Assembly: GCF_005871185.1 (NCBI RefSeq)
Contig: NZ_SWKN01000006.1
Span: 1,280,451-1,344,450, forward strand
DNA: 64,000 nucleotides
Reading direction: 5' to 3'
Source of the DNA: Limnobacter alexandrii
GTDB lineage: Bacteria > Pseudomonadota > Gammaproteobacteria > Burkholderiales > Burkholderiaceae_B
A program made the position numbers and the translations under genes. Every line of letters starts with the position of its first letter. Positions within the stretch are counted from its first letter, which is position 1. Shown here one piece after another: positions 14,018 through 62,047 of the stretch. Under the pieces are notes generated by a model. It was not told the DNA's origin. It worked only from the letters and a program-made list of their open reading frames with translations, and did not search any database.

Positions 14018-14094
14018 CTGCCCGTAGCTCAGTTGGATAGAGCATCGGCCTTCTAAGCCGAGGGTCGGGGGTTCGAACCCCTCCGGGCAGGCCA
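14018..14094 (+). tRNA. tRNA-Arg (TCT)
   Basis: 77 nt including CCA. The acceptor CTGCCCG pairs with CGGGCAG, discriminator G, anticodon loop CTTCTAA with TCT. Its 3' half, starting just after the anticodon stem, is repeated as a fragment at 44713 and 61867. Confidence 0.97.
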
Positions 14095-14117
14095 AGAATT
14101 TAGTACCGGTTTACGGT

Positions 14118-14194
14118 GGCGGTGTTAGCTCAGTTGGTAGAGCAATGGATTGTGATTCCATGGGTCGTGGGTTCGAGCCCCATACATCGCCCCA
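14118..14194 (+). tRNA. tRNA-His (GTG), copy 1
   Basis: 77 nt counting the encoded extra G at -1, which faces C73 as tRNA-His requires, and CCA. Acceptor GCGGTGT pairs with ACATCGC through one G-T pair; anticodon GTG in ATTGTGATT. The gene sequence is identical to copies at 44769 and 61923. Confidence 0.97.
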
Positions 14195-14203
14195 AATAAA
14201 ATC

Positions 14204-14245
14204 AAGGACTTAGCGTGAGTGATCCGCTAGGTCCTTTTTGTTTTT
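14204..14245 (+). terminator. Terminator of the tRNA cluster
   Basis: The 12-bp stem AAGGACTTAGCG/CGCTAGGTCCTT has one G-T pair and an 8-base loop. It is followed by TTTTTGTTTTT. Confidence 0.9.
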
Positions 14246-14495
14246 GGCGACTTCATTGTCGATTTAGACGTAATTTCACTTGTCGTAGCTAAAGCAAATT
14301 ACTCTTGAGTCCTTACCTTCGATCAAGTGGCTGTGACAAGCCTGTGACAAAATCTGTGACAAATTTTTTTTCACAGACAATTTGTGAGTATCGATCGATG
14401 TTTGACACATTTTCATTTGTTACATAAACATGTACTTCACTTGCTGGCAGTCTTTAGTGAGAAATGACCTCTGTAACAAAGCTTTCACTAATCCA
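14246..14495. repeat. Left-end region of island A
   Basis: No gene lies here. The stretch is related, with scattered differences, to 44897-45145, and similarity stops near GCTTTC..CTAATC. Three CTGTGACAA repeats start at 14331, 14342 and 14354, one helical turn apart. The third faces TCACAG at 14371, making an inverted pair. TTGACA (14402) followed 17 bp later by TAAACA is a possible promoter toward the downstream gene. Confidence 0.75.
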
Positions 14496-14574
14496 TTTTT
14501 TCTGACATTTGTAGTAGCAGGTCAAACATCTCAATTTCAGGCGCAGGTCGACTTGTTAATCCAAAAGGAAGTGT

Positions 14575-15531
14575 ATGGAAAAGCTAGGTGAGATTAAACC
14601 ACTGCGCTTGCTGTTTGTTGGTGCTGGGGGTGTTGGTGCCTACTATGCAGCCCGCTTGATTAGCAGTGGAAATTTCGTGGTGTTGGTGGCACGTGGACAT
14701 CACCTTGAAGCATTGCAAAACCATGGGTTGCAGGTTGAGCATGATCAGTTTTCATTCAAGCAGCCAGTGCGTGCGGTCGATGACTCCACAATGCAAACTC
14801 AGTACCGATGCAGTGATTTCGATGTACTAGTACTTTGTATGAAATCGCAGGACACAGCGGGTTGGCTGGATTCCAAGTCAGTTTGGATGGCTGAAGGCGC
14901 CACACCGGTTTTGTCCTTGCAAAATGGCGTCGAGAATGAAGCGGAACTAAGCAAGGTATTGGGCATTAGCCGAATCATTGGTGGATTGGCTGTAAGAATT
15001 GGCGCTCACATTGTTTCGCCAGGATGTATCAGGGCTCAAGGACTAGGGCAAATTGTGTTGGGACCTTGGCCCAATACGGTTGCGAATCGAGGTTTGAAAA
15101 CTGAGGTTGAAAGGCTGACGGGTGTATTCAATGCTTCAGGGATTCCTACGCGCACGGCCGCCGACATTCGCCATGAATTGTGGAAAAAACTGATGGTTAA
15201 CAATGGTGTGAATCCCTTGTCTGCTCTTACTCGAAAGGACACAGGTTTTCTAACAAAACACCCGCATTACAGGCAAGTGGTTTATGCGGCAATGCGAGAG
15301 GTCGCTGCGGTTTCAGGGGCAGACGATGTGGTGTTGAGCCAGTCTGATGTGGATGAAATGTTCAAGTTGATCTGTGAGTTTGATCCGATCAAAACTTCGA
15401 TGTTGGTAGACCTTGAAAAGGGCCGTCCTTTAGAGCTAGATGCGATCAGTGGCAGTGTGCTTAGGCGAGCTGAACGCTTGGGGATCGATACACCCGTAAC
15501 AGCATTAATTCAATCAATGCTCAGCAGCTGA
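14575..15531 (+). CDS. Ketopantoate reductase family (PanE/ApbA) oxidoreductase
   Basis: A 318-residue NADPH-dependent enzyme of the 2-dehydropantoate 2-reductase family. The Rossmann loop is LLFVGAGGVGAYYAARL (about 12-28), and ELWKKLMVNNGVNPLSALT holds the conserved Lys and Asn of the catalytic domain. AAAGGAAG precedes the ATG. As first gene of island A and far from pan genes, it may act on another 2-keto acid such as a pathway side product; that is inference. It converges with the GntR gene with no gap. Confidence 0.8.
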   Translation: MEKLGEIKPLRLLFVGAGGVGAYYAARLISSGNFVVLVARGHHLEALQNHGLQVEHDQFSFKQPVRAVDDSTMQTQYRCSDFDVLVLCMKSQDTAGWLDSKSVWMAEGATPVLSLQNGVENEAELSKVLGISRIIGGLAVRIGAHIVSPGCIRAQGLGQIVLGPWPNTVANRGLKTEVERLTGVFNASGIPTRTAADIRHELWKKLMVNNGVNPLSALTRKDTGFLTKHPHYRQVVYAAMREVAAVSGADDVVLSQSDVDEMFKLICEFDPIKTSMLVDLEKGRPLELDAISGSVLRRAERLGIDTPVTALIQSMLSS

Positions 15532-16242
15532 TTACTTCCCAAATCTTTCTTTGGGTAGCTTTTGCACTGCGATCAAGGATCGATTGATGTGCTCACCCAA
15601 AATTTGCGTGGCCAGCTCGCTGTTTCGATTCAGTGTGGCCGTCAAAATTTCTTCATGTTCGGAGTGCACATCGCGGGGAATGGGTTTTTCAGAAAGAATC
15701 AGCCTGCGATAACGCTCGGATTGCATGTACAGCAAATGTTGAAACTGTTTTAGCCAGCGCGATGGACAGGCTGAGATCAGCGTGTCGTGAAACAGGCGGT
15801 TTTTGCGTTCCCATTCGCTGCGGGTTTCAACGGTTTCCTCGTCAAGGCGTGATTCTGCCCGGCTTAGCATATGGAACGCACCCATTACCTCGGCTTCCCA
15901 CTGGTCATCGCCCAGTGCGATGGCTTGCCGCAGTGCTTCAGTTTCAATCATGACGCGGGTGCGGGTAATGTCTTGAAAATCTTCCGCAGACATGGGGGCC
16001 ACGGTAAAGCCTCGGTGCCCCTGCGCAACCACCAATCCGTCATTCAGTAGTAGTTGCAGGGCTTCCCGCAAGGTGCCTGCACCCACGTCGTAATCGTCTT
16101 TCAGATGTTCTACACGCAGTTTCGTACCCGGCTTGTGCACGCCTTCAATGATGTCATTGCGCAGTTTGCGGTAGGCGGTTTCGGCCAGGGTCAGGCTTTC
16201 CCCACTGGTGACGCTGCCCGGCAATGAGACCACTTCATTCAT
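15532..16242 (-). CDS. GntR family (FCD) transcriptional regulator
   Basis: A 236-residue regulator. The winged helix (about 15-80) contains AYRKLRNDIIEGVHKPGTKLR and GAGTLREALQLLLNDGLV; the rest is a helical FCD effector domain. I chose ATG 16242 (MNEVVSLPG), which follows GGAG; the frame is open 63 bp further. It is transcribed away from dmpC, so it likely controls the meta-cleavage operon and itself. AphS of Comamonas testosteroni, a repressor of phenol genes, is also a GntR protein. Confidence 0.87.
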   Translation of the reverse strand: MNEVVSLPGSVTSGESLTLAETAYRKLRNDIIEGVHKPGTKLRVEHLKDDYDVGAGTLREALQLLLNDGLVVAQGHRGFTVAPMSAEDFQDITRTRVMIETEALRQAIALGDDQWEAEVMGAFHMLSRAESRLDEETVETRSEWERKNRLFHDTLISACPSRWLKQFQHLLYMQSERYRRLILSEKPIPRDVHSEHEEILTATLNRNSELATQILGEHINRSLIAVQKLPKERFGK

Positions 16243-16302
16243 ACACACTCCAAAAAAATTCTCTCTGTGTCGCCATTGTAGTCGAGTTGCGGTGCTAATC
16301 AA

Positions 16303-16368
16303 CATTTTCGATTAAAAATAAAATTCTCGAGAAAATATATTGACGTCGAGAAAAATAAGTTTTATCGT
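16303..16368 (+). promoter_or_regulatory. dmpC promoter and candidate GntR operators
   Basis: The palindrome TTCTCGAGAA (16324-16333) is flanked by related half sites ATTTTCGAT (16304) and GTCGAGAAAA (16345). TTGACG (16340) with TATCGT 17 bp later is a possible -35/-10 pair overlapping the last site. This layout would let the divergent GntR protein repress. Assignment is inferred from position. Confidence 0.5.
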
Positions 16369-16405
16369 TTGTTCATGGTTTAATCGATTGGCAAGGAAGA
16401 ATGCA

Positions 16406-17860
16406 ATGAAAGAAGTCTTGAACTTCATCAACGGGGAATTCGTCGCAACGGGAAAAACATTCCCCAAGCACTCGCCTTTGAACAATGCGGTGATTGCGCA
16501 GGTCCACGAGGCCAGCCGTGCACAGGTCAACGATGCAGTGGCCGCTGCCAAAGCTGCTTTGAAGGGCCCATGGGGCAAGATGACGGTGGCAGACCGGGTG
16601 CAAATGCTGTACGCCGTGGCCGATGAAATCAATCGTCGATTTGATGACTTTTTGCAGGCTGAGGTGGCCGACACCGGTAAGCCGGTGAGCCTGGCCAGTC
16701 ACATTGATATTCCCCGCGGGGCGGCCAATTTCAAGGTGTTCGCCGACACCATCAAGAATGTGCCCACAGAATGCTTTGAAATGGCCACTCCGGATGGACG
16801 CGGCGCGCTGAACTATTCCATTCGTCGCCCTGTGGGTGTAGTGGGCGTGATTTGCCCCTGGAATCTCCCTTTGCTGCTGATGACCTGGAAAGTTGGCCCT
16901 GCGCTGGCTTGCGGCAACACGGTGGTTGTAAAACCTTCGGAAGAGACCCCACAGACTGCTGCGCTGTTGGGTGAGGTGATGAATAAAGTGGGCGTCCCTC
17001 CTGGCGTATACAACGTGGTGCACGGCTTTGGTCCAGATTCCGCGGGTGAATTCGTGACTACCCACCCCGATGTGAATGCAATTACCTTCACCGGCGAAAC
17101 ACGCACCGGTGCCGCAATCATGAAAGCGGCTGCGCAAGGTGCACGCCCCGTGAGCCTTGAAATGGGTGGCAAGAATGCCGCAGTCGTGTTTGCAGATTGT
17201 GATTTTGATGCCGCCATTGAAGGCACCATGCGCTCGGTGTTTGCCAACAGCGGGCAAGTGTGTTTGGGCACTGAACGTGTGTATGTGGAACGTCCGATTT
17301 TCGACAAATTTGTGGCTGCCATGAAGAAGGGCGCGGAGGGTTTGAAGCCCGGATTGCCAGACGATAAAGACACTGGCATTGGCCCGGTGATTTCACAGGA
17401 ACACCGCGACAAAGTATTGGGCTATTACCGAAAGGCGGTGGAGCAGGGCGCAACCGTGGTGACTGGTGGTGGTGCATTTGAGATGCCTGGCGAACTGAAC
17501 CAGGGCGCTTGGGTGCAGCCCACCATTTGGACTGGCTTAGATGACGATGCGGCGGTGTGTGTCGAGGAAATCTTTGGACCCTGCTGCCACATTGCCCCCT
17601 TTGATTCTGAAGACGAAGTGGTGGCGCGTGCCAACAACAATGTGTACGGCCTTTCTACTGCGGTGTGGACTCAGAACCTGGCCAAAGCGCACCGTGTGGC
17701 TGCCTCGATTGAAGTGGGTTTGGCTTGGGTGAACAGCTGGTTCTTGCGCGATTTGCGCACACCGTTTGGTGGTGCCAAGCAATCGGGTATTGGCCGAGAA
17801 GGGGGTGTGCACTCGCTGGAGTTTTACACCGAACTTAAAAACATTTGCGTGAAGCTGTAA
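16406..17860 (+). CDS. dmpC: 2-Hydroxymuconic semialdehyde dehydrogenase
   Basis: A 484-residue NAD-dependent aldehyde dehydrogenase that oxidises the catechol ring-cleavage product to 4-oxalocrotonate. Catalytic residues are seen as Asn153 (CPWNLPL), Glu252 (LEMGGKN) and Cys286 (SGQVCLG). The sequence resembles XylG/DmpC, including WVNSWFLRDLRTPFGG near the end. Start ATG 16406 follows AAGGAAGA; the frame extends to 16340 without support. It heads a tightly packed seven-gene operon and the 4-oxalocrotonate branch. Confidence 0.93.
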   Translation: MKEVLNFINGEFVATGKTFPKHSPLNNAVIAQVHEASRAQVNDAVAAAKAALKGPWGKMTVADRVQMLYAVADEINRRFDDFLQAEVADTGKPVSLASHIDIPRGAANFKVFADTIKNVPTECFEMATPDGRGALNYSIRRPVGVVGVICPWNLPLLLMTWKVGPALACGNTVVVKPSEETPQTAALLGEVMNKVGVPPGVYNVVHGFGPDSAGEFVTTHPDVNAITFTGETRTGAAIMKAAAQGARPVSLEMGGKNAAVVFADCDFDAAIEGTMRSVFANSGQVCLGTERVYVERPIFDKFVAAMKKGAEGLKPGLPDDKDTGIGPVISQEHRDKVLGYYRKAVEQGATVVTGGGAFEMPGELNQGAWVQPTIWTGLDDDAAVCVEEIFGPCCHIAPFDSEDEVVARANNNVYGLSTAVWTQNLAKAHRVAASIEVGLAWVNSWFLRDLRTPFGGAKQSGIGREGGVHSLEFYTELKNICVKL

Positions 17861-17870
17861 GGAGCCCACG

Positions 17871-18701
17871 ATGAACGCACCCGCTTCACCCGAAATTGGA
17901 TTGAGCATTCAGGCCAACGGCCTTCAAACAAATTATCACGATCAAGGCCAGGGCACGAACCTGATGCTGATTCATGGTTCCGGCCCCGGTGTTTCGGCTT
18001 GGGCGAACTGGCGCTTGGTGATACCCGGTTTTGCAAAACAATTCCGCGTTGTTGCCCCAGACATGGTGGGCTTCGGTTTCACTGAGCGCCGCCAAGGTTA
18101 CCAATACAACCTGGACAACTGGGTGGCCCACGCCATTGGTGTGATGGACGCACTGAACATGGAACAAACCGATTTGATTGGTAACTCGTTTGGTGGCGCT
18201 GTAGCGCTGGCGCTGGCGATTCGCCACCCCAGTCGTGTTCGCAAGCTGGTGTTGATGGGCAGTGTGGGTGTGCCATTCCCGATTACTGAGGGACTGGATG
18301 CAGTGTGGGGTTACCAGCCGTCATTCGAGAACATGCGTCGCATCATGGACTACTTCGCATACGACCGTGGCCTGGTGAACGATGAGCTGGCTCAGTTGCG
18401 TTTTCAGGCCAGCATTCGCCCCGGTTTTCAGGAAAGTTTTTCAGCCATGTTCCCCGCGCCACGACAGCGCTGGGTAGATGCCATGGCCAGCCATGAAAGC
18501 GATATTCGAGCGCTGAATAAAAGCACATTGATTGTGCATGGCCGGGATGATCAGGTCATTCCCTTGAGCACTTCGCTGTGTTTGCACGAAATGATTGTGG
18601 ATTCGCAACTGCATGTTTACGGCAAGTGCGGTCACTGGACCCAGATTGAACACGCTGCGCGCTTTGAGCGCTTGGTGACTGACTTCCTGCAAGAGGCTTA
18701 A
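17871..18701 (+). CDS. dmpD: 2-Hydroxymuconic semialdehyde hydrolase
   Basis: A 276-residue alpha/beta hydrolase that cleaves the meta ring-fission product to 2-oxopent-4-enoate and formate, or another acid if the ring carried a substituent. The triad is Ser106 (GNSFGG), an Asp in GRDDQVIP (226/227) and His255 (GHWTQIE); the oxyanion loop is HGSGPGVSAW near 35. It lies 10 bp after dmpC. Having both dmpC and dmpD gives the island both branches of the meta pathway. Confidence 0.93.
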   Translation: MNAPASPEIGLSIQANGLQTNYHDQGQGTNLMLIHGSGPGVSAWANWRLVIPGFAKQFRVVAPDMVGFGFTERRQGYQYNLDNWVAHAIGVMDALNMEQTDLIGNSFGGAVALALAIRHPSRVRKLVLMGSVGVPFPITEGLDAVWGYQPSFENMRRIMDYFAYDRGLVNDELAQLRFQASIRPGFQESFSAMFPAPRQRWVDAMASHESDIRALNKSTLIVHGRDDQVIPLSTSLCLHEMIVDSQLHVYGKCGHWTQIEHAARFERLVTDFLQEA

Positions 18702-18706
18702 AGCAA

Positions 18707-19489
18707 ATGGACGCTACTCAAATTCGCGACTTGGGCGATGAACTTTACAACGCATTGACCCAACGGCACACGATTGCACCGCTGACCAGCCGTGATTTCG
18801 ATATCACGATTGAAGACGCCTATCACATTCAACAGAGGATGATTGCGCGACGCTTGGACAACGGCGAGCACGTTATCGGCAAGAAAATTGGCGTGACCAG
18901 CGCCGCCGTGATGAACATGCTGAATGTGCACCAACCCGACTTTGGCTACCTGCTCAATGGCATGGTGTACAACGAGGGCGAAGCCATTGAAGCGGCCAGC
19001 CTGATTCAACCGCGTGCAGAAGGTGAAATTGCATTTTTGATGAAACGCGATTTGATGGGCCCTGGTGTAACCGCCGCCGATGTGCTGGCTGCCACAGAAG
19101 GCGTGATGGCCTGTTTCGAAATTGTGGACTCACGCATCGCCGATTGGAAAATCAAGATTCAAGACACCGTGGCCGACAACGCCTCTTGCGGTGCAATTGT
19201 GTTGGGTGACCGTGTGGTCGACCCGCGCAAAGTAGACCTGTTCACCTGCGGCATGGTGCTGCAAAAGAATGGCGACATTGTGGGTACCGGTGCGGGCGCT
19301 GCTGCACTTGGGCACCCAGTGAACGCGATTGTTTGGCTGACCAATACGCTGGGCCGTTTGGGCATTGGTCTGAAGGCAGGTGAAATTATTTTGTCAGGTT
19401 CTCTGGCAGCACTTATTCCCGTGAAGGCAGGCGATTCGCTGCACATGTCGATTGGCGGCATTGGCAACTGCTCTGTTCGCTTCGCGTAA
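18707..19489 (+). CDS. dmpE: 2-Oxopent-4-enoate hydratase
   Basis: A 260-residue protein of the FAH-like hydratase/decarboxylase family, adding water to 2-oxopent-4-enoate to give 4-hydroxy-2-oxovalerate. Family segments include [28 protein letters not shown] with metal-binding acidic residues, and [13 protein letters not shown]. It is paralogous to dmpH in this operon (shared EIAF, VIDSR and GAAALGHP-type motifs). It starts 5 bp after dmpD. Confidence 0.93.
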
Positions 19490-19518
19490 GTTACAACGCA
19501 AAAGGCAAAAGGAATTCG

Positions 19519-20436
19519 ATGATGAAAAAGATCAAATGCGCACTGATTGGTCCCGGCAATATTGGCACCGATCTCTTGATGAAACTGAAACGCAGTGCGG
19601 TGCTCGAGCCTGTGTGGATGGTCGGTATCGATCCCGAATCAGATGGCCTGAAGCGTGCGCGCGAGATGGGTATTAAAACAACCGCTGAGGGTGTGGATGG
19701 TTTGTTGCCCCATGTGGAAGCAGATGGTGTGCAAATCGCATTCGATGCCACCAGTGCTTATGTGCACGCAGAGAACAGTCGCAAGCTGAATGAACTGGGT
19801 GTGCTAATGATTGACCTGACACCCGCAGCAGTTGGGCCTTTCTGTGTGCCCCCGGTGAATTTGAAGGAGCATGTGGGCAAGCGTGAGATGAATGTGAACA
19901 TGGTGACTTGCGGTGGTCAGGCGACCATTCCCATGGTGTACGCCGTGTCGCGTGTTCAACCGGTCAGCTACGGCGAAATTGTGGCCACGGTGTCCTCGAA
20001 ATCAGTAGGCCCAGGTACCCGCAAAAACATTGATGAATTTACCCGCACCACGGCAGGTGCTGTTGAAAAGGTGGGCGGTGCCAAAAAAGGCAAAGCCATC
20101 ATCATCATCAACCCGGCTGAACCGCCCCTGATCATGCGTGACACCGTGCATTGCTTGGTGGAAGGCACACCTGATCAGGAAGCAATTACCAGGTCGGTTC
20201 ACGACATGATCAAGGAAGTACAGAAGTACGTGCCTGGCTACACGTTGGTGAATGGCCCTGTGTTTGATGGCAACCGTGTGTCGGTGTTCATGCAAGTGGA
20301 AGGCCTGGGTGATTACCTGCCCAAGTACGCCGGCAACCTGGACATTATGACGGCTGCTGCGGCCCGTACTGCTGAAATGTTTGCTGAAGAAATTCTCAGC
20401 GGCAAGCTGACCCTTGAACCCACCGTGAGCGCCTAA
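19519..20436 (+). CDS. dmpF: Acetaldehyde dehydrogenase (acylating)
   Basis: A 305-residue CoA- and NAD-dependent enzyme making acetyl-CoA from the acetaldehyde released by DmpG, to which it is joined by a substrate channel in the family. The NAD loop is [13 protein letters not shown] (8-20), and the catalytic Cys is 131 in [12 protein letters not shown]. Two adjacent ATG codons occur; the start follows AAAAGGAAT. Confidence 0.95.
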
Positions 20437-20446
20437 GGAGAACCCC

Positions 20447-21475
20447 ATGAGCTTGAAAGGAATTGAAATCAAAGTGCATGACATGACGCTTCGCGATGGC
20501 ATGCACCCCAAGCGCCACTTGATGAGCCTGGAACAAATGCTGAGCATTTCAAAGGGGCTGGACGAGGCAGGTGTTCCGCTGATTGAAGTGACCCATGGCG
20601 ATGGTTTGGGTGGGTCATCTGTGAACTATGGTTTTCCGGCGCACAGCGATGAAGAGTATTTGAGCACGGTGATTCCTGCGATGAAGCAGGCCAAGGTGTC
20701 CGCCTTGTTGTTGCCTGGTATTGGTACGGTGGATCATTTGAAAATGGCCAAAGAACTGGGTGTTCACACGATACGTGTAGCCACCCACTGCACCGAGGCC
20801 GATGTGAGTGAGCAGCACATCACTTATGCCCGCAAGCTGGAGATGGACACCGTGGGTTTCCTGATGATGGCCCACATGGCCAGTGCAGAGAAGCTGATTG
20901 AGCAAGCCAAATTGATGGAAGGCTACGGTGCCAACTGCATTTATGTCACCGACTCTGCTGGCTACATGCTGCCCGAAGAGGTGTACGAAAAAATCAGCGC
21001 AGTGCGCGATGCACTGAAGCCCGATACCGAAATTGGTTTTCATGGTCACCACAACCTGTCGATGGGCGTTTCAAACTCCATCGAAGCCATTCGTGGCGGC
21101 GCTCGCCGTATTGATGCAGCCGCAGCCGGTTTGGGTGCGGGGGCAGGTAACACACCGATGGAAGTGCTGGTGGCGGTGTGTGAACGCATGGGCATCAAGA
21201 CGGGTGTGGATGTATTCAAGATTTCCGATGTGGCAGAGGACCTGGTGGTACCGATCATGGATCACCCCATTCGAATTGATCGTGACTCCATGACCCTGGG
21301 TTATGCCGGTGTGTATTCCAGCTTCCTGTTGTTCGCCAAACGCGCCGAGAAAAAGTACGGCATCAGCGCCCGTGAAATTTTGGTTGAGCTTGGGCGACGC
21401 GGCATGGTGGGCGGTCAGGAAGACATGATTGAAGACACGGCCATGACAATGGCCCGTGCAAGGAGCGTTGCATGA
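20447..21475 (+). CDS. dmpG: 4-Hydroxy-2-oxovalerate aldolase
   Basis: A 342-residue DRE-TIM metallolyase that splits 4-hydroxy-2-oxovalerate into pyruvate and acetaldehyde. [10 protein letters not shown] (11-20) carries catalytic Arg16 and His20 and the metal Asp12; GFHGHHNL supplies the metal His pair. It starts 10 bp after dmpF, consistent with the physical DmpFG complex, and overlaps dmpH by 4 bp. Confidence 0.95.
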
Positions 21476-22260
21476 AACTGGATAAGAAAACCATCTCTGC
21501 ACTGGCGGAGCACCTGGAAAGCGCAGAACTGAATACGCGCGATGTGGTGAAGATTACCGATGACCACCCCGACATGGATTGGGACGACGCCTATGCCATT
21601 CAGGATGAAATTCGTGCCCGCAAAGAACGCCGTGGCGTGCGCATTGTGGGTCTGAAAGCCGGTTTGACCTCGCACTCGAAGATGAAGCAAATGGGTGTGG
21701 ATACACCGGTATTCGGGTTTCTGGCTGATTACTTCAGCGTGCCGGAAGGTTCGGCCGTGAAGGTGAGCGAGTTGATTCACCCAAAGGTGGAGCCTGAAAT
21801 TGCCTTTGTTACCAAAGCTGATTTGCGTGGCCCAGGTTGCAACATTGCCACTGTGCTGGCGGCCACTGACTTTGTGATGCCAGCCATTGAAGTGATCGAT
21901 TCACGTTACCGCGATTTCAAATTTGATTTGAAAAGCGTGATTGCAGACAACACGTCCGCTGCACGTTTTGTGGTGGGCGGCACCATGAAACCAGTCGACG
22001 GCATGGACTTGAAAACCACTGGCATTGTGTTGGAAAAAAATGGTGTGCCCGTGGCTTTTGGTGCAGGTGCCGCAGTGGTGGGTCACCCGGCAGCAGCCAT
22101 TGCGATGCTGGCCAATGAACTGGCCAAGCGCGATCAGTTTGTGCCGGCAGGGTCGCTGATTTTATCGGGTGGCATTACCGAGGCCGTGGCCGTGGAAGCT
22201 GGCGACAACGTCACCTTGCATGTGCAGGGTTTGGGCCAGGTCGGCCTGCGTTTTGAGTGA
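21472..22260 (+). CDS. dmpH: 4-Oxalocrotonate decarboxylase
   Basis: A 262-residue member of the hydratase/decarboxylase family that removes CO2 from 2-oxohex-3-enedioate and in the family forms a complex with DmpE. Seen are [26 protein letters not shown], the metal site [10 protein letters not shown] and VIDSRYRDF. The ATGA overlap with dmpG suggests coupled translation. Confidence 0.93.
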
Positions 22261-22271
22261 GGGCGAACAGC

Positions 22272-53645: not shown

Positions 53646-53661
53646 TAGACCGGTCGTCTAG
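53646..53661. promoter_or_regulatory. Candidate TetR operator, autoregulatory
   Basis: TAGACCGGTCGTCTAG is an imperfect palindrome 20 bp upstream of the TetR start, also matched at 52978. It resembles NemR-type operators. Confidence 0.7.
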
Positions 53662-54094: not shown

Positions 54095-54127
54095 TGGACT
54101 CGCCCCCGTATTACAGGGCCATCGGTA

Positions 54128-55012
54128 TTAGTTAATTGACCTCTGCTTTTCCCGGAATCTCCGGGGAGGCAGGTACCCCAAAGCACTGTGAGGGTGCTTT
54201 TCATTGTAATGCTCAAACCACATCTTCAATTCACGCATGACAGTTTGCGAGTCAGGCCGATTGGCCAGACGAGCATAGTCACGTTTGAATGTCTTCACAA
54301 AGCTCTCGGCCATACCGTTGCTTTGCGGGCTTTCAACCGGCGTTCTCACGGGTTTGAGCCCAAGTTGGGTTGCAAAGGTTCTCGTTTCAATGGCGGTATA
54401 ACAAGAGCCATTATCCGACAGCCATTCAATGGGAGTTTGCGCCGTACTGCCCGCGCCAAATCGGTATTCCACTGCTTGCATCATCAAATCTCCAACCAGG
54501 CCAGCATCAATGCCTTTGGTGGTTGCAACCCAGCTCATGACCTCGCGGTCACAGCAATCCAGGGCAAAGGCCACTCGAACTTTCTCACCGTTGTCACAAG
54601 CCAGTTCAAACCCGTCCGAACACCAGCGGGTGTTGCTGGTTTGAACAGCCACTTTGCCGTCGTGCCTACGTGTATCCCTAGGCTTACTGCCATGCCGAAA
54701 CAACAGCAAATTGTTGTCTCGCATCACGCGGTAAACACGTTTGTGGTTCACCATTTGTGGGCTCCCATCGATACCCTGAAACTTCAGAATCGCCCACACG
54801 CGGCGATAACCGTAGGTGGGCAAGTCTTTGGCAACGGTGATGATGTCACTCAACAACTGGTCGTCATCAGGCCTGGGTGGCGCTTTTCGACGGTCAACCC
54901 AATCAGCTTTTCTGGTTCTCAGAGCGGTCATGTGACTGCGCGAAACGCCAAGGACGAAACAGACCTCTCTTACTGGTCGTCCCCGGGCAACAAGGGCGAG
55001 TGCGCAATCCAC
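54128..55012 (-). CDS. IS3-family (IS2 group) transposase OrfB
   Basis: A 294-residue DDE transposase catalytic part. HTH_21 ([16 protein letters not shown]...[10 protein letters not shown]) precedes an rve integrase core with Asp in CSDGFELA, Asp in LSDNGSCY and Glu in [11 protein letters not shown]. In IS2 it is made as an OrfAB fusion by -1 frameshifting; the OrfA frame overlaps by 43 bp here. The catalytic residues are intact, but the element is not. Confidence 0.92.
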
Positions 55013-55131
55013 TTTCGGCTTTTACCATACTCCACGGCTTCCTTGAGAATTTCGTTATCAAGTGTTTTGCGGCCCAGCGCAGCTTCCAGTTGTTTGATGC
55101 GCTTCAAAGCTTCTTTCATTTCAGAAGCTGG
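54970..55131 (-). pseudogene. OrfA remnant of the IS2-like element
   Basis: The last 53 codons of OrfA remain ([19 protein letters not shown] ... [13 protein letters not shown]), the leucine-zipper end of the DNA-binding subunit. A TAG just upstream (55132-55134) lies outside the IS sequence. The helix-turn-helix is gone. Confidence 0.8.
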
Positions 55132-55456
55132 CTACCATGATTTCTACAGAACCCCGCGCGGTTTCCATCCGCGAGCGATCAATTCGAACAGCTCGTGGAC
55201 GCTCACGACTCCGCTGTCGTTTATGAACATGCCGATCCTGACCTACATTGCTGAAATTTCGCCGCGACCGATCCTGTTCATCCACGGTGAGAAAGCACAC
55301 TCGCGCTATTTCAGCGAAACTGCGTACGCAGCTGCGGCGGAGCCAAAAGAATTGATGATCATTCCTGGAGCCAACCACACGGATCTGTACGACCGGGTTG
55401 ACATTATTCCTTTTAACAAGCTGACGGCGTTCTTCCGTGTTCACCTGAAGAAGTAG
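55131..55456 (+). pseudogene. Alpha/beta hydrolase fragment (YcjY-like C-terminus)
   Basis: About 108 codons of a hydrolase C-terminus: YRTPRGFHPRAINS, ISPRPILFIHGEKAHSRYF with the acid region, and PGANHTDLYDR with the catalytic His. The nucleophile half is missing, cut where the IS begins. The frame continues upstream only through the antisense of the transposase, so a 422-residue reading there is an artefact. Confidence 0.8.
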
Positions 55457-55638
55457 AGACGACGGCAGCATGAATTGGCCACGGTAGGAGGTGCTATCGG
55501 AATTGCGGGACGAGCTGTTGCAACTGCAATTAATGTGAGATGTTCGCGCTCTGAGTTGAGATAAATGCTCGCTACATCTCCTTAATGTTGAATGACAGCG
55601 TCTGCCCGAATACGTAACTGAAAAAAGGAGATGTAGAA

Positions 55639-56124
55639 ATGAACTACAAGTGTCGAATCTCAAGCCTGCGCGGACTGAGTTTACTGTTAGGAATGCTGGT
55701 GGTTAGCGTATGCCGAGCCGGGGCACCTTCCGAGTCCGGTAACGCGATCATTGGAGTCTTTGAGAGTTCTGAGAAATTGCCCATGTGGATGACTATTAAC
55801 GAACAGCGATTTGCCATCACTCTTGCCGATAACGATACCGCGCGTGCATTCGTCTCGCAGTTTCCGCTTACGCTGGATATGGAAGAGCTGAATGGCAACG
55901 AAAAACATGCCAAATTACCCACATGATTGCCCACACATGCGAGCCGTCCTGGAATCATCCGCAATGGCGATCTCATGCTCTATGGGAACGACACGCTAGT
56001 TGTTTTCTATTCGACCTTCAATTCGATCTATTCCTACACTCGGATTGGTCGAGTGGATGACACTGCAGGCCTGGCCGAGGCCCTGGGTTCGGGAAATGCA
56101 AGACTTACTTTTTCAAGACAGTAA
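55639..56124 (+). pseudogene. Cyclophilin-like domain protein, in-frame TGA
   Basis: A signal-peptide-like start (MNYKCRISSLRGLSLLLG...CRA) is followed by the cyclophilin-like (PF18050 type) domain: FAITLADNDTARAFVSQFPLTLDMEELNGNEKHAKLP, then TGA at 55924-55926. The same frame continues LPTHASRPGIIRNGDLMLYGNDTLVVFYSTF to a stop at 56124. Length and order match an intact gene except for that codon. A ribosome site (AAAGGAGATG) is retained. Nonsense mutation is most likely; selenocysteine is possible in principle but has no support here. Confidence 0.8.
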
Positions 56125-56258
56125 GTTATCGACAATACAGTCCTCGGGTTGCCTGGTAATCGCTGAGCAACGAAAGCAAGTACCGCTAATGACACCTTCG
56201 TAGTTCCCAAACTTTCAGCGCAATACCGAGTCGCTTGTGTGTCTGAACTCGGTTGAGT

Positions 56259-57164
56259 TCAGGACGGCCGAACTTTGCTAACCATGTCAATGAAAGCGCG
56301 TAACTTCAATTGTGCTTGAGTGCGAGCAGGAAAGTACAAATACAAACCCGAAGTTTTGGGAATGAATTCACTGAGTACGGGTACCAAGCTGCCTTCAGTC
56401 AATTCTCGCTCGACCTCGTACTGCGCCACATAGGCCAAACCCAAACCCTGTCGGGCAAAGTTGATCAGAATATCCCGGTTATTCACCACCACTGGGCTTG
56501 GTACATCCACAAAAAACTGCCGCTTGCTGCGAACAAACTCCCACCGGTGAAAGGTGCCACTGGTCACGAAGCGGTACATGATTGCATCGTGTTGCTGTAA
56601 ATCCTCAGGTTTTGCTGGTTTGCCATTGCGTTTGAAATATTCCGGGCTTCCCACCACATGAAAAGCCAAATCGGGAGTAAGCCGTACACCAACCATGTCT
56701 TTGTCTACCGACTCGCCCAAACGAATACCTGCATCGTAACGACCCTCCAGCAAATCGGTAAGGCCTTCATCGATCGTGATGTCCAGTTTCACATCGGGGT
56801 ACTTCTGGCGAAACTCGGCAACAATGGGTTCGACCAAATAAGTGCAGGCCGATCGTTTCATATTAAGTCGAAGCGTGCCGATTGGTTTGTCGCGAAACTG
56901 GCCAAGAGCGGAGATTGCCTCATCAATTTCCTGCGTAGCGGGCTGCAGGCGCGAGAACAAAGCCTGGCCAGCTTCAGTCAAAGCAACTTTGCGAGTGGTC
57001 CGCTGAAACAACACCACGCCATGGCGTTCTTCCAACACCCGGATCGCCTTGCTCACCGCCGTGGGGGTAATGCCCAATTGTGCAGCGGCCAAGGTAAAAC
57101 TGCTGTGCTCGGCTACAGTTAAAAACACCGGAATGCCGTCCAGCAGATCTTTATCGAGCACCAT
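56259..57164 (-). CDS. LysR family transcriptional regulator
   Basis: A 301-residue regulator; ATG 57164 (MVLDKDLLDGIPVFLTVAEH) follows GGAGAT, and the frame is open to 57269. The helix-turn-helix is SSFTLAAAQLGITPTAVSKAIRVLEERHGVVLFQRTTRKV. It diverges from the molybdenum hydroxylase operon across 128 bp, so it probably controls it. Confidence 0.9.
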   Translation of the reverse strand: MVLDKDLLDGIPVFLTVAEHSSFTLAAAQLGITPTAVSKAIRVLEERHGVVLFQRTTRKVALTEAGQALFSRLQPATQEIDEAISALGQFRDKPIGTLRLNMKRSACTYLVEPIVAEFRQKYPDVKLDITIDEGLTDLLEGRYDAGIRLGESVDKDMVGVRLTPDLAFHVVGSPEYFKRNGKPAKPEDLQQHDAIMYRFVTSGTFHRWEFVRSKRQFFVDVPSPVVVNNRDILINFARQGLGLAYVAQYEVERELTEGSLVPVLSEFIPKTSGLYLYFPARTQAQLKLRAFIDMVSKVRPS

Positions 57165-57292
57165 GAACAATCTCCATTCTGAACCTAATGTTAATAACCA
57201 ATACACCATATCCGCCTTTATCTTGATAATCAAGGGGGCTAGACTGTACCGATATGTGCACTGCAACATTTTTAGGATATCGGAGGTGGTGA

Positions 57293-57751
57293 ATGGTTGA
57301 TTTTGTATTGAATGGCAAAGCCGTCAGTGTGGACGTGGATGGCGACACCCCACTGCTTTGGGTGCTTCGCGATGACCTGGACATGACGGGCACAAAATTT
57401 GGCTGCGGCATGGGCCTTTGCGGCGCTTGCACAGCACATGTAGATGGTGAGCCTGTGCGCAGTTGTTCGACGCCAGTGTCCACCGTGGCTGGTAAACAAG
57501 TTAGCACCATCGAAGCCATGCAGAATCACAAAGTGGGATCGGCTGTTCAGGCAGCCTGGCAGAAGCTCGATGTCGTGCAGTGTGGTTATTGCCAGTCGGG
57601 GCAAATCATGTCGGCCACAGCTTTGCTGACCAGCAACCCAAAGCCTTCCGACGATGACATCGATGCAGCCATGGCAGGCAATGTGTGCCGCTGTGCCACC
57701 TATGTGCGCATTCGTGCGGCCATTCACGAAGCCGCCAAAACATTGGCTTAA
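57293..57751 (+). CDS. Molybdenum hydroxylase 2Fe-2S subunit (IorA-like)
   Basis: A 152-residue electron-transfer subunit of the xanthine oxidase family. Cluster ligands are Cys38, Cys43, Cys46 and Cys58 for the plant-type centre and Cys97, Cys100, Cys132 and Cys134 for the second ([15 protein letters not shown]). It resembles the small subunit of isoquinoline 1-oxidoreductase and membrane aldehyde dehydrogenases. It precedes the large subunit by 12 bp. Confidence 0.92.
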
Positions 57752-57763
57752 GGAGAAACATTC

Positions 57764-59971
57764 ATGAGCATCGTTACCAACGTTTCTCGTCGCGATTTTT
57801 TGAAAGCCGGCGCCGGCCTGACACTCGCAGTCAGCATTCCCTCCGTGTTTGCCAGCAACAAACTGAAAGTAGGCGGCCCGGGCCAGGCTGGCAGTGCTGT
57901 TGAAGCAGGCAACTTCGCTCCTAATGCCTTTGTGACAATTGGTAGCGACAACACAGTTACTGTTATTTCCAAACACCTTGAAATGGGTCAAGGCGTGTAT
58001 ACGGGCCTTGCCACCTTGGTTGCAGAGGAACTGGATGCCGATTGGTCCACAGTCAAAGTGGAGGGCGCAGGCGCTAGCACCAAACACTACAACAATCTGT
58101 TCTGGGGTGCGCAAGGCACTGGCGGCAGTACCGCAATTGCCAACTCATTTGAACAAATGCGTACCGCAGGCGCCACCGCCCGGGCCATGTTGGTGAACGC
58201 TGCCGCTGCACAATGGAAAGTACCCGTTCGCGAAATTTCAGTGAGCAACAGTGTTGTGTCGCATGCGAAAAGCAATCGCAAGGCCACCTTTGGCGAGTTG
58301 GCTGAAGCTGCCAGCCAGCAATCTGTGCCTGGTGAAGTAACGTTGAAAGACCCGAAAGATTTCAAACTGATTGGCAAAACAGCACCCCGCAAAGACAGTA
58401 CTGCAAAAACCAACGGCACTGCAATTTTTACGCAAGACATGAAACTGCCCGGCATGCTGGTGGCTGTTGTTGCCCACCCGCCCAAGTTTGGCGGCACCGT
58501 GAAGAAGGTTGATGACAAAGCTGCGCGCGCTATCCAAGGTGTATCGGACGTGGTCACCGTTCCCAGTGGCGTGGCCGTTTTGGCCAGCAATTTCTGGACC
58601 GCGAAAAAAGGTCGTGATGCACTGAACATTGAATGGGATTTGTCCAAAGCTTACAACGGTAGCAGCGAACAAATTACAGCTGACTACACCCAACTACTGG
58701 GCAAGCCCGGCACGGTTGCGCGGGAAGATGGTGACACCAAAGGGCAATTTGCGCGCAGCAATCAGATTGTCGAATCCGACTTTCACTTCCCTTTTTTAGC
58801 GCATGCCTCGATGGAACCATTGAACTGCCTGATTAAACTGGACAAGGACAGCGCGGAGGTCTGGAATGGCGAACAAATGCAAACCGCCGACCAGGCTGCT
58901 GTGGCCGCAGTGTTGGGCCTTGACCCCGAAAAAGTGAAACTGAACATGCTGTATGCCGGTGGCAGCTTTGGCCGCCGAGCCAACCCGCAAGCGGATTACC
59001 TGGTTGAAACGGCACACATTGTGAAAGCCATTGGCGGAAAAGCGCCGGTGAAATTGGTGTGGAGCCGGGAAGACGACATGAAAGGCGGCTACTACCGCCC
59101 GGTCTATGCCCACCGCTTGCGCGCAGCATTGGGAAAAAATGGTTTGCCAGTGGCCTGGGAGAACCGCATTGTTGGCCAGTCAATTGCCAAAGGTTCGCCC
59201 TTTGAGGCAGGCATGGTGAAAGACGGCGTGGATGTAACCTCGGTCGAAGGGTCATCCAACGTGCCTTACCAAATTCCAAACATGCTCGTGGATTTACATA
59301 CCACCAATGAACAGGTTCGCGTACCCATTCAGTGGTGGCGTGCCGTGGGTTCCACCCACACTGCCTACGCCACCGAAGTATTCGTGGATGAACTGGCCGT
59401 TCAAGCCAAACAAGATCCGGTTAAATATCGTGAGGCCTTGTTGACTAAGCACCCCCGCCATGCAGGTGTACTGAAACTGGTGGCTGAAAAAGCCGGCTGG
59501 AACAAGCCACTCGTATCTGCAGCCGACGGTGCCAAACGTGGACGCGGCATTGCTGTACATGAATCGTTCAATAGTTTTGTGGCTCAGGTTGTTGAAGTAA
59601 CAGTTCAGAAAGATGGCAACTTCAAGGTTGACCGCGTGGTGTGTGCCGTAGATTGCGGTGTGGTAGTAAACCCCGATGTGGTGAAAGCACAAATGGAGGG
59701 TGGTATTGGTTTTGCCCTGGCCGCCGCACTGACTGGTGAAATTACCTTGAAAGACGGTGAGGTGCAGCAGTCGAATTACCACGACTACCCAGTGTTGCGC
59801 ATCAACGAAATGCCCAAAGTAGAGGTACACATGGTTCAGTCTGGCGAGAAGCCAACCGGCGTGGGTGAGCCGGGCGTACCACCTTTGGCACCCGCGCTGG
59901 CCAACGCCTTGTTCAACGCGACCGGCAAGCGCATTCGCAAACTGCCGATTGCTGAACAACTGAAAGCATAA
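57764..59971 (+). CDS. Molybdenum hydroxylase molybdopterin subunit (IorB-like)
   Basis: A 735-residue large subunit. A twin-arginine signal (VSRRDFLKAGAGLTLAVSIP, Arg9-Arg10) predicts export of the folded enzyme. Two molybdopterin-binding parts follow, with LEMGQGVYTGLATLVAEELD, GGSFGRRANPQADYLVE and the C-terminal GVGEPGVPPLAPA carrying the catalytic Glu. The family hydroxylates N-heteroaromatics such as isoquinoline, or oxidises aldehydes; the substrate is not determined. No gene for a cytochrome acceptor is adjacent. Confidence 0.9.
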   Translation: MSIVTNVSRRDFLKAGAGLTLAVSIPSVFASNKLKVGGPGQAGSAVEAGNFAPNAFVTIGSDNTVTVISKHLEMGQGVYTGLATLVAEELDADWSTVKVEGAGASTKHYNNLFWGAQGTGGSTAIANSFEQMRTAGATARAMLVNAAAAQWKVPVREISVSNSVVSHAKSNRKATFGELAEAASQQSVPGEVTLKDPKDFKLIGKTAPRKDSTAKTNGTAIFTQDMKLPGMLVAVVAHPPKFGGTVKKVDDKAARAIQGVSDVVTVPSGVAVLASNFWTAKKGRDALNIEWDLSKAYNGSSEQITADYTQLLGKPGTVAREDGDTKGQFARSNQIVESDFHFPFLAHASMEPLNCLIKLDKDSAEVWNGEQMQTADQAAVAAVLGLDPEKVKLNMLYAGGSFGRRANPQADYLVETAHIVKAIGGKAPVKLVWSREDDMKGGYYRPVYAHRLRAALGKNGLPVAWENRIVGQSIAKGSPFEAGMVKDGVDVTSVEGSSNVPYQIPNMLVDLHTTNEQVRVPIQWWRAVGSTHTAYATEVFVDELAVQAKQDPVKYREALLTKHPRHAGVLKLVAEKAGWNKPLVSAADGAKRGRGIAVHESFNSFVAQVVEVTVQKDGNFKVDRVVCAVDCGVVVNPDVVKAQMEGGIGFALAAALTGEITLKDGEVQQSNYHDYPVLRINEMPKVEVHMVQSGEKPTGVGEPGVPPLAPALANALFNATGKRIRKLPIAEQLKA

Positions 59972-59983
59972 AGGAGCCGCAGC

Positions 59984-61006
59984 ATGGAAAGTCTTGATCT
60001 TGAAGTGTTGCAGCGCGCGCACCGGTGGCTGGAAAATGGCCATCGTGTGATGCTGGCCACTGTGGTGCGCACTTGGGGTTCTTCCCCCAGACCACCGGGC
60101 TCGTTGCTGGCGTTGCGTGAAGATGGCCATGCCGTGGGCAGCGTATCGGGTGGCTGCATTGAAGACGATTTGATTGACCGCCTGTTGAACAAGGATGGCT
60201 TTCCGGCACAGCCTCAACTGGTGAGCTATGGTGTTGGTGCAGAGCAGGCCCGGCGCTTCGGCTTGCCCTGTGGCGGCACCATGGAGCTGGTGCTTGAACC
60301 CTTGGCTGCAGCCAATGAATTGACGGAATTGTTAAACGCGTTGAAAGCCGGAAAACTGGTGCAGCGCAGCCTGAACATGAAAACAGGCGACAGCAAACTG
60401 GAGTCCACCCACCCTGAACAAGGCTTGGTGTTTGATGGCTCCACCTTGATCAGTGTATTCGGCCCACGCTATCGTTTGTTGCTGATTGGTGCTGGTCAGT
60501 TGAGCCAGCAACTGGCGCGCATGGCGATTGCACTCGATTTTGCTGTGACGGTATGTGACCCACGTGAAGAATACGCCGATGAATGGAATGAACTCGGCAC
60601 TACTTTGACACGCGACATGCCCGACGACGTTGTCATGGCGATGAAACCCGACGCACGCATGGCCGTGATTGCCTTGACCCATGACCCCAAGCTGGATGAC
60701 CTCGCCTTGATGGAGGCCTTGCAAAGCCCCGCATTTTATGTGGCTGCGCTGGGTTCGCGCCGAAACAATGAAACCCGCCGAACCCGCCTTCTTGAATTTG
60801 GCGTAAGCGAGGAACAGGCTGCAACCTTGCGTGGCCCGGCCGGTATTTATATTGGAAGCCGCACCCCTGCTGAAATCGCAGTTTCAATTGCCGCCGAACT
60901 GGTGGCCATGAAAAACGGCGTTGCTGGCGACAAGGTATTGAATGTGGCACAAGCCAAAGCTGCGCTTGAAGTGGCTGCTGACACCTTGAGCGCCTGCGCA
61001 AAATGA
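59984..61006 (+). CDS. XdhC/CoxI family molybdenum-cofactor maturation protein
   Basis: A 340-residue protein with an N-terminal XdhC/CoxI domain (MLATVVRTWGSSPRPPGSLLAL, GSVSGGCIEDDL) and a C-terminal Rossmann domain (LLLIGAGQLSQQLARMA, ALGSRRNNETRRTRL). Such chaperones load sulfurated cofactor into xanthine-oxidase-type enzymes. It lies 12 bp after the large subunit. Confidence 0.9.
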   Translation: MESLDLEVLQRAHRWLENGHRVMLATVVRTWGSSPRPPGSLLALREDGHAVGSVSGGCIEDDLIDRLLNKDGFPAQPQLVSYGVGAEQARRFGLPCGGTMELVLEPLAAANELTELLNALKAGKLVQRSLNMKTGDSKLESTHPEQGLVFDGSTLISVFGPRYRLLLIGAGQLSQQLARMAIALDFAVTVCDPREEYADEWNELGTTLTRDMPDDVVMAMKPDARMAVIALTHDPKLDDLALMEALQSPAFYVAALGSRRNNETRRTRLLEFGVSEEQAATLRGPAGIYIGSRTPAEIAVSIAAELVAMKNGVAGDKVLNVAQAKAALEVAADTLSACAK

Positions 61007-61019
61007 AAAAGCCCGGGCC

Positions 61020-61631
61020 ATGATTCAGGGCATTTTATTGGCTGCGGGGCAGGGCCAGCGCTTTGACCCTAGCGGGGAAAAAGACAAGTTGCTGCAACTT
61101 CGCGCCGATTCTGGCAAGCCCGTGTTGTGGCATAGCGGCAGCGCCATGTGCAAGGTGCTGCCCGACACGCTGGCAGTCATTCAAGGTCACCAGCCCGGGC
61201 GCGTGCACTGCCTGTTCGATGCGGGCTGCGAAGTCTTGATCAGCCCGGAAGCACAACAAGGTATGGGCAGCGCCTTGGCCGCGGCTGTAAAGCATTGCCT
61301 TGAGAAAAAGCCTGGTATCACTGGATTTGTGATTTCATTGGGAGATATGCCGTGGCTACCCGTTGAAGCCATTGCACTGGTACATGCTGAACTCTCGAAA
61401 GTGAGCGCACAAGAGTTACATGCTGTGGCGCCATACTTTCAAGGCAAGCGTGGGCACCCGGTGGGGCTGACGCGTGCATGGGCGGGTTCACTGCTTGCAT
61501 TGCAGGGAGATATAGGCGCAAAAAATTTGCTACGCGCTGCGAATATGCTCCCGATTGAGTGGCCAACCGCGGATGTGTTGCAAGATGTGGATGTACCGGA
61601 AGATCTGAATTATTCAAGTCGTAGAGATTAA
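61020..61631 (+). CDS. MobA/MocA-like molybdenum cofactor nucleotidyltransferase
   Basis: A 203-residue NTP transferase. GILLAAGQGQRFD (4-16) is the nucleotide loop; GMGSALAAAV and FVISLGDMPWLPVEAI carry the metal Asp. Homologues beside XdhC convert the cofactor to its cytosine dinucleotide form used by this hydroxylase class. It ends the operon, 104 bp before the island right end. Confidence 0.87.
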   Translation: MIQGILLAAGQGQRFDPSGEKDKLLQLRADSGKPVLWHSGSAMCKVLPDTLAVIQGHQPGRVHCLFDAGCEVLISPEAQQGMGSALAAAVKHCLEKKPGITGFVISLGDMPWLPVEAIALVHAELSKVSAQELHAVAPYFQGKRGHPVGLTRAWAGSLLALQGDIGAKNLLRAANMLPIEWPTADVLQDVDVPEDLNYSSRRD

Positions 61632-61735
61632 ATTTGAATAAAGTACACGCATCGTGGAAAAGCGTCTGAATTCAAAGGCGAGCCGATGCTCGCAGCTGGC
61701 TGTTTCGAGATGAGTTTTTAACGGTAACTGCTGAT

Positions 61736-61866
61736 GCTATGTTGATGTTAAACGACATTATTGGCATAGATCCCAAGAGTTAGAACCTTGCTGAGAGCAC
61801 GCATTTACGCCATTTGAAAACTAACTGTGTAGTTTTCTACACAGTTACGTGTACCAAACTTCTAAG
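61736..61866. repeat. Right-end region of island B
   Basis: Nearly identical to 44582-44712, including the perfect hairpin at 61823-61846 and the CTTCTAAG junction with the tRNA-Arg fragment. The weak match extends left to about 61682 (CCGATGCTC). Nothing coding lies between the MobA-like gene and here. Confidence 0.85.
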
Positions 61867-61922
61867 GGGTCGGGGGTTCGAACCCCTCCGGGCAGGCCAA
61901 GAATTTAGTACCGGTTTACGGT

Positions 61923-61999
61923 GGCGGTGTTAGCTCAGTTGGTAGAGCAATGGATTGTGATTCCATGGGTCGTGGGTTCGAGCCCCATACATCGCCCCA
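61923..61999 (+). tRNA. tRNA-His (GTG), copy 3
   Basis: 77 nt, identical to the other two copies, including G at -1 and CCA. No complete tRNA-Arg precedes it. Confidence 0.93.
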
Positions 62000-62008
62000 A
62001 ATAAAATC

Positions 62009-62047
62009 AAGGACTTAGCGTGAGTGATCCGCTAGGTCCTTTTTTTA
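62009..62047 (+). terminator. Terminator of tRNA-His copy 3
   Basis: Same stem as at 14204, followed here by an uninterrupted T-run. Confidence 0.88.

Follow-up and report, generated by a model that had tools for sequence, protein, structure and literature searches.

The window analysed here, a stretch of 64,000 nucleotides from Limnobacter alexandrii (G000:C1:1280451-1344450, in an assembly of 3.49 Mb and 14 contigs), contains two tandem islands, both without an integrase, at the transfer RNA (tRNA) operon tRNA-Pro(TGG)-tRNA-Arg(TCT)-tRNA-His(GTG). There is good support for the insertion, one after the other, of two elements that share their ends. Our preferred explanation, which we regard as probable, is that a tyrosine integrase inserted them at tRNA-Arg(TCT) by a crossover in the T-arm, and that each element carried the rest of tRNA-Arg, a tRNA-His and a terminator. 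Tandem tRNA islands are already known; the novelty lies in the carried tRNA-His with its terminator, and the mosaic integrase of a related element is a second, testable finding.

The structural evidence begins with a module of 178 bp, composed of the 3' part of tRNA-Arg(TCT), a spacer, the whole of tRNA-His and the terminator, which is present in three copies (Table 1). A whole tRNA-Arg is found at copy 1 only and same-strand fragments of it at copies 2 and 3, the pattern by which tRNA islands are recognised. The left flanks of copies 2 and 3 are 92.9% identical over 140 bp (130/140) and the right flanks of copies 1 and 2 are 76.5% identical over 250 bp (192 of 251 columns), while the remaining four flank pairs, at 46.5-47.6%, are unrelated. 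A sequence-only reading of this DNA had described a 180-bp module in three copies, a whole tRNA-Arg at copy 1 alone, two pairs of related flanks and a right flank unrelated to the others at copy 3 only; tRNA detection with ARAGORN and alignment agree with it on each point. The terminator hairpin of copy 1 (-20.7 kcal/mol, z -5.1) is common to the whole operon, and copy 3 would be the displaced chromosomal tRNA-Arg 3' part, tRNA-His and terminator.

An empty site is preserved in two other Limnobacter genomes, G008 (on one contig) and G005: each has only one tRNA-Pro-Arg-His operon, and 241 bp past its terminator begins the homologue of window position 62062 onward. Both intervals, of 30.7 and 17.2 kb, are insertions because of this empty site. 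Such an uninterrupted operon joined to the right-flank gene is what the sequence-only reading had proposed to look for, and its contention that serial insertion restored the 3' part of tRNA-Arg and brought in a tRNA-His gains support both from the empty site and from the recurrence of the island ends elsewhere. A third relative, Limnobacter sp. 130 (G012), has a TM2-domain gene directly after the operon, the homologue of which lies about 2.5 kb right of copy 3 in the window. The gap between terminator and right flank differs in length, being 17 bp in the window (62045-62061) and 241 bp in G008 and G005; a short open reading frame (ORF) can be made out by eye in the G008 gap (L041:1288-1528).

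Among nine other Limnobacter genomes with an aligned module, a left end of the TGTGACA type, as in the window, follows the operon in MED105 (G006) and in G003, and MED105 also contains a match to the right end, so that the same end types do recur elsewhere as the sequence-only reading had suggested checking. Neither this type nor that of G001, described next, occurs in G005, G007, G008, G009, G010 or G012. The left end of G001 has degenerate TGCCCA-type repeats; at G001:C9:1-1000 (L053/L216), at the same operon, these resemble the arms of tRNA-Arg(CCG) islands, the end adjoins a terminator with a non-chromosomal loop, and the contig stops 487 bp from the module. The alignment leaves out the genus genomes G004, G014, G011 and G002, and also G027 (all without the exact collecting core), G013 (operon split over contigs) and G015 (no full module).

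On MED105 contig C40, the same left end at the same operon is followed by RelA/SpoT-like, Mrr-like and SRAP genes and then by a 490-residue tyrosine integrase with Arm-DNA-bind_2 and Phage_integrase domains. The contig ends 889 bp past the integrase. In alignments to related islands, contig C38 takes up, with its first 273 bp, within about 15 bp of the point where C40 stops; this colinearity makes the two contigs most likely neighbours. Contig C38 matches the phenol cluster of island 1 (94% at 14564-20218, 89% at 20219-29378 and 96% at 36366-44336), after which come an HU gene and a right end (82% identity to 44646-44708), followed by a methyltransferase gene and by the TM2-domain gene known from this locus. 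Read in this order, the contigs would form a single island, about 114 kb long, with 9.9 kb on C40 and 103.9 kb on C38. The MED105 assembly holds no second tRNA-His, and the gene after the integrase, of which the first 297 residues are present, matched no Pfam family in a scan of 16 MED105 ORFs.

An integrase is absent from the window itself. None of the eight PF00589 matches of the L. alexandrii genome falls within it, and a tblastn search with five integrases of the element family returned one match of 22 residues (E 4.3), outside the islands; on these results we reject the idea that the window hides an integrase. Pfam scans of 51 window ORFs, the only way in which serine recombinases were looked for, found none, nor did they find relaxase or type IV secretion genes, such as would identify an integrative and conjugative element (ICE). 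The statement of the sequence-only reading that 48 kb lack an integrase is thus confirmed for the window, whereas its idea of an element family without a recombinase is not supported: a tyrosine integrase is present in the MED105 element, which shares left end, cargo and site with the window islands. A family integrase, as expected of the tRNA-Arg(CCG) islands described next, is likewise missing from the window and present in this relative at the same tRNA.

A scan of the collection with the MED105 integrase gave 50 loci, of which 47 were scanned for tRNAs (all except L149-L151, at 28% identity). Sixteen have tRNA-Arg(CCG), four tRNA-Met and one tRNA-Pro(CGG), while 25 have no tRNA in the stretch examined. 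The Pro-Arg(TCT)-His operon was found at 1 of the 47, MED105 C40, and a carried tRNA-His was accordingly rejected as a trait of the whole integrase family. The L. alexandrii genome has its own tRNA-Arg(CCG) island of 39 kb, with an integrase and both ends (G000:C1:438008-477083; L057, L156, L157). Its integrase is 82% identical to the MED105 integrase overall and 48% in the arm domain, its repeats are TGTGCCC, and it is the sole close relative of the MED105 integrase among the eight PF00589 places of this genome. MED105 likewise has an island at tRNA-Arg(CCG), almost equal in length, with the tRNA at C46:163873 and the right-end joint at C46:202960. Another tyrosine recombinase of L. alexandrii, of 333 residues (G000:C7:433776-434240, L217), has counterparts of 333-334 residues in G012, G005 and G004 and does not belong to the island family (25% over part of its length).

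The MED105 integrase is a mosaic of conserved core-binding and catalytic domains and a different arm domain. Residues 1-67, the arm, are only 47-53% identical to those of five tRNA-Arg(CCG) integrases (L103, L104, L105, L106 and L110), whereas the core-binding domain is 95-100% identical to four CCG integrases (105/105 residues in one of them) and 81% to that of L. humi (L106), and the catalytic domain is 96-97% identical, with 85% for L. humi and L110 cut short. The closest arm domains are those of the Polynucleobacter integrases L107, L109 and L145 (63-64%), the core-binding domains of which are only 47-48% identical. Arm-binding domains are described in PMC8138268 as a late-acquired and less conserved part of integrases.

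The left-end repeats, which we take as putative arm sites, also differ between islands: TGTGACA in the MED105 element, TGTGCCC at L103, L104 and L106, TGTGACC at L105 and L110, and TGGCCCA at L111 and L120. A heptamer occurs at least three times in 13 of the 17 left ends examined and falls short of that count in four. A strict one-to-one code between arm domain and repeat was considered and is not borne out, since the left ends from Polynucleobacter disagree with one another: L145 has TGTGACA three times, and in L107, L108 and L109 no heptamer reaches that count. In dinucleotide shuffles of the three window flanks and MED105, the observed repeat count was reached in 2 of 1000 for MED105 and 8 of 1000 for the flank of copy 2.

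The right ends of the window islands follow a design known from the CCG islands. There, TTGGCCTCCGAAG, the anticodon part of tRNA-Arg(CCG), is joined to GTTCGATCCCC, in which the T-loop follows, and 13 nucleotides of the gene are missing. This exact joint is present in 5 of the 16 genus genomes (G000, G006, G005, G001 and G012), with different DNA beyond it; because of that difference, the joint is taken to be element-borne, with the crossover to its right. The two CCG ends in G012 fit one island only if the contig is circular. In the window, CTTCTAAG is joined to a T-arm at 44705 and 61859, again with part of the gene missing: before copies 2 and 3 it is joined to GGGTCGGGGGTTCGA, CCGA is missing, and GGGTCGG follows CTTCTAAG. 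An inverted repeat in the same right end keeps a similar stem in MED105 with changes on both sides; stem conservation was dropped as evidence, being a single comparison and not common to CCG right ends. In sum, the Limnobacter CCG islands (L057-L060, L103-L106, L110) resemble the window islands in having a repeat-bearing left end and a right end made of an anticodon-loop remnant and a T-arm, and their integrases are near-identical to that of MED105 in core and catalytic domains, except in L. humi. They differ in tRNA target, arm domain and repeats (tRNA-Arg(CCG) and TGTGCCC-type repeats, as against the Pro-Arg(TCT)-His operon and TGTGACA), have no tRNA-His, and carry 26 bp of the tRNA in the island of L. 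alexandrii itself.

Table 1. Position of modules, islands, island ends and neighbouring features in the window; att, attachment site.
Feature	Position	Strand	Basis or comparison
tRNA-Pro(TGG)	13911-13987	+	ARAGORN
tRNA-Arg(TCT)	14018-14094	+	ARAGORN
tRNA-His(GTG), three copies	starts 14119, 44770, 61924	+	ARAGORN
tRNA-Pro(TGG)-tRNA-Arg(TCT)-tRNA-His(GTG) operon, insertion site	13911-14194	+	spacers 30 and 24 bp
Module copy 1, putative attL of island 1	14062-14239	+	178/178 identical to copy 3
Module copy 2, joint of islands 1 and 2	44713-44889	+	173/178 columns against copies 1 and 3; tRNA-His 44770-44845
Module copy 3, putative attR	61867-62044	+	identical to copy 1; tRNA-His 61924-61999
Island 1	14240-44712		30,651 bp from module start to module start; Pfam; absent from G008/G005 site
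Island 2	44890-61866		17,154 bp from module start to module start; Pfam
Left end, island 1	14240-14493	+	76.5% to island 2 left end, 71% to MED105 (250 bp); MED105 alignment extends to 14493
TGTGACA repeats (putative arm sites), island 1 left end	14332, 14343, 14355	+	
Left end, island 2	44890-45159	+	82.0% identical to MED105 left end over 250 bp
TGTGACA/TGTCACA (putative arm sites), island 2 left end	44982, 44993, 45005, 45019	+	
Right end, island 1	44582-44712	+	92.9% to island 2 right end (140 bp); 82% match in MED105
Inverted repeat AACTGTGTAG-TTTT-CTACACAGTT, island 1 right end	44669-44692		
Anticodon-loop remnant CTTCTAAG, island 1 right end	44705-44712		
Right end, island 2	61736-61866	+	inverted repeat 61823-61846; CTTCTAAG 61859-61866
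IS3-type transposase gene (rve domain), in island 2	54128-55012		
Right chromosomal flank	62062-64000		80% to G008, 74% (752 bp) to G005

We propose a model in which a tyrosine integrase would have inserted the islands (14062-44712 and 44713-61866) one after the other into tRNA-Arg(TCT), with the crossover probably in the T-arm of that gene and the integrase presumably recognising, as arm sites, the TGTGACA repeats in the left end. The attachment site of the element would comprise the rest of tRNA-Arg, a complete tRNA-His and the operon terminator. After insertion the promoter before tRNA-Pro, for which TTGACG-17-TAGAAT at 13869-13897 is a candidate (the sole plus-strand site in the three regions scanned), would still give an uninterrupted Pro-Arg-His transcript; the original segment would be displaced to the far end, and each insertion would add one module and one tRNA-His. 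An element would carry tRNA-His because insertion in tRNA-Arg would otherwise cut a tRNA-His that is mostly single-copy from its promoter. A tRNA-His pattern, which misses copies with two or more mismatches, was matched in 228 of 268 family genomes and, by our own reading of the table, once in 225 of them, twice in G117 and G178 and three times in L. alexandrii. The two tRNA-His of G117 (G117:C1:1249001-1303000; L207, L208) lie about 50 kb apart, each in an identical stretch of 1767 bp, with no family-integrase match in the two 13-kb stretches around them; those of G178 are at contig ends, with no complete tRNA in the stretches examined. That the class as a whole repairs a tRNA operon, adds one tRNA-His per insertion and was derived from CCG islands by exchange of the integrase arm domain together with the arm repeats, the core-binding and catalytic domains being left unchanged, is a wider proposal, to which we would give an even chance.

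The final step of the model is that the integrase would later have been lost from both islands. A different possibility is that the islands are non-autonomous yet mobile, a visiting element supplying the integrase in trans, and that to be integrase-less is their normal state. In its favour, both islands lack the gene and both keep left and right ends; however, the resident family integrase is only 48% identical in its arm domain and its island has TGTGCCC repeats, and MED105, the sole relative with matching ends that is readable as far as the integrase, has its own (G003 could be read for about 7 kb only). We consider mobility in trans improbable and infer loss of the integrase, as we do the role of the carried segment in repairing the operon. 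The islands are probably stranded, because the sole close integrase resident in the genome belongs to the tRNA-Arg(CCG) island with its TGTGCCC repeats.

Several observations weigh against insertion at tRNA-Arg as we describe it. The promoter scan performed at the level of chance (one site found, 1.1 expected in shuffles), and the repeat count in the flank of copy 1 is not significant alone, being reached in 217 of 1000 shuffles. In MED105 the module is absent from the right end along with about 2.7 kb of chromosome that is present in G008, which leaves attR unreadable, and L. humi (G014), despite the family integrase at its tRNA-Arg(CCG), shows no right-end joint within two mismatches. The terminators speak on both sides. 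In G006, G003 and G001, the genomes with family-like left ends, the terminator loop differs from that of the empty-site genomes, as expected of an element-borne copy, and the hairpin is kept in both of the differing terminators that were folded (G003 and G006); the loops of copies 1 and 2 are of the empty-site type (with one change in copy 2), and our model would have to invoke gene conversion to explain them. Two further points concern the place of the crossover: the T-arm of tRNA-His shares GGGTCGTGGGTTCGA with tRNA-Arg(CCG), from which tRNA-Arg(TCT) is one base off, and the distance from T-loop to first repeat, 116 bp in the CCG island, is 161 bp measured from tRNA-His and 261 bp from tRNA-Arg.

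These last two points would be explained if the strands were exchanged in the T-arm of tRNA-His. The element would then need only the 3' end of tRNA-His and the terminator, and what its right end has of tRNA-Arg (the 3' part) and of tRNA-His (the 5' part) would be passenger sequence captured once from a chromosome. The core-binding domain that MED105 shares without a difference with a CCG integrase is consistent with this, given that the tRNA-His T-arm is the closer to tRNA-Arg(CCG), and so is the shorter distance, 161 bp being nearer to 116 bp than is 261 bp. Yet the right ends show the CCG design at tRNA-Arg and not at tRNA-His, and the Arg-His spacer, which is constant among G005, G008 and G012, varies among the occupied sites (G003, G001 and copy 2), a weak sign that the element bears the spacer. 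We judge a tRNA-His crossover to be unlikely, though the strongest of the competitors to insertion at tRNA-Arg.

The distribution of the cargo is a final complication. The sequence-only reading had allowed that it would fail if relatives carried all the genes between the copies without the modules, and half of this is true, a point partly against that reading: relatives have most of the phenol block, and also the right part of island 2, at other places where no module accompanies them. Phenol hydroxylase genes are present in 6 of the 16 genus genomes, L. alexandrii included. The phenol block begins about 19 kb right of the operon in G008 and is located on a contig continuing the right-hand neighbourhood in G005, and on contigs other than that of the operon in G012 and G001; these stretches, in all four genomes, contain no module and no right-end match. 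G012 has nearly the whole block of 15.65-44.34 kb, including a segment, at about 29.4-36.3 kb of the window, which the phenol blocks of the other four (G006, G008, G005 and G001) lack or in which it was not seen. The right part of island 2 recurs in G008 at 89% and in G001 at 85%, with more distant versions in G004, G014 and G015. Identity to G008 is 94-95% in two parts of the phenol block and 86% in one, against 79-84% for the chromosome around the site; because identity in the block exceeds this background, exchange between species is suggested for at least part of it. The module-free copies show that the cargo also travels, or remains in place, in the absence of these ends; they leave the case for insertion at the site intact.

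Such copies would also be expected if no site-specific element were involved and homologous recombination or segmental duplication of the tRNA modules had put chromosomal blocks between the copies. The identity of copies 1 and 3 suits this view, and the repeated tRNA-His of G117 demonstrates that such duplications happen. Against it stand the empty site, the distinct left and right ends that are paired in both islands and recur in MED105, the integrase beside the same left end and the CCG-island design of the right ends, and we think it very improbable that duplication is the explanation.

Islander, with 125 tandem arrays of two or more tRNA islands, requires an integrase for each island (PMC4383910). 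Its islands are alike in rebuilding a whole tRNA at one end, leaving the displaced 3' fragment at the other, and forming tandem arrays; neither window island has the integrase that its rule demands, so we call them derivatives and not complete members, and they differ again in that the carried segment extends past the target tRNA to a complete second tRNA gene and terminator. In the tRNA-dependent lysogeny of mycobacteriophages (PMC10865867), too, an element brings a complete tRNA that makes insertion survivable. That system has a short common core and a target tRNA that insertion breaks and does not rebuild, whereas here copy 1 has tRNA-Arg whole, and it is the following gene of the operon, lying within the attachment site, that supplies the extra tRNA; the complete tRNA carried is tRNA-His, and whether its isotype matches as in that system hinges on the Arg or His crossover. 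ICEclc-like ICEs of Pseudomonas similarly have aromatic-degradation cargo at tRNA genes, in one case beside a tRNA operon, but possess an integrase, undergo transfer and carry an 18-bp tRNA end (PMC7466150). In our search of the open-licence literature, no account came up of this locus, of similar islands in Limnobacter, or of elements that bring along the tRNA gene following their target in an operon. An exact-pattern search of viral contigs for the corresponding attP gave 0 matches, and among the best 20 of 44 and of 45 matches to phage and plasmid records only the tRNA part was matched.

The window suggests a possible way for an island to insert into a tRNA gene within an operon while sparing the cell's next tRNA, which single-gene repair does not explain. 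If this is true, an internal gene is available to an element even where the operon also encodes an essential tRNA present in single copy. The locus is also a natural example of tRNA genes increasing in number along with islands. The mosaic integrase, with repeats to match, makes it possible to test directly how integrases switch recognition partner, and the islands show the shuffling of a phenol-degradation cluster among Limnobacter species.

As judged from Pfam, the cargo of island 1 consists of a phenol hydroxylase and meta-cleavage cluster, a XylR/DmpR-like (sigma-54-type) regulator, and transport and outer-membrane genes, and that of island 2 includes LysR and TetR regulators, alcohol dehydrogenases, a luciferase-like monooxygenase, the IS3-type transposase and molybdenum-hydroxylase/XdhC/MobA-like genes. 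A 37-bp segment of island 2 (55383-55419) has a match near the end of the phenol block in MED105, and two DUF1329 genes of opposite orientation in island 1 (28011-30823) give rise to an inverted repeat of 349 bp at 71% identity.

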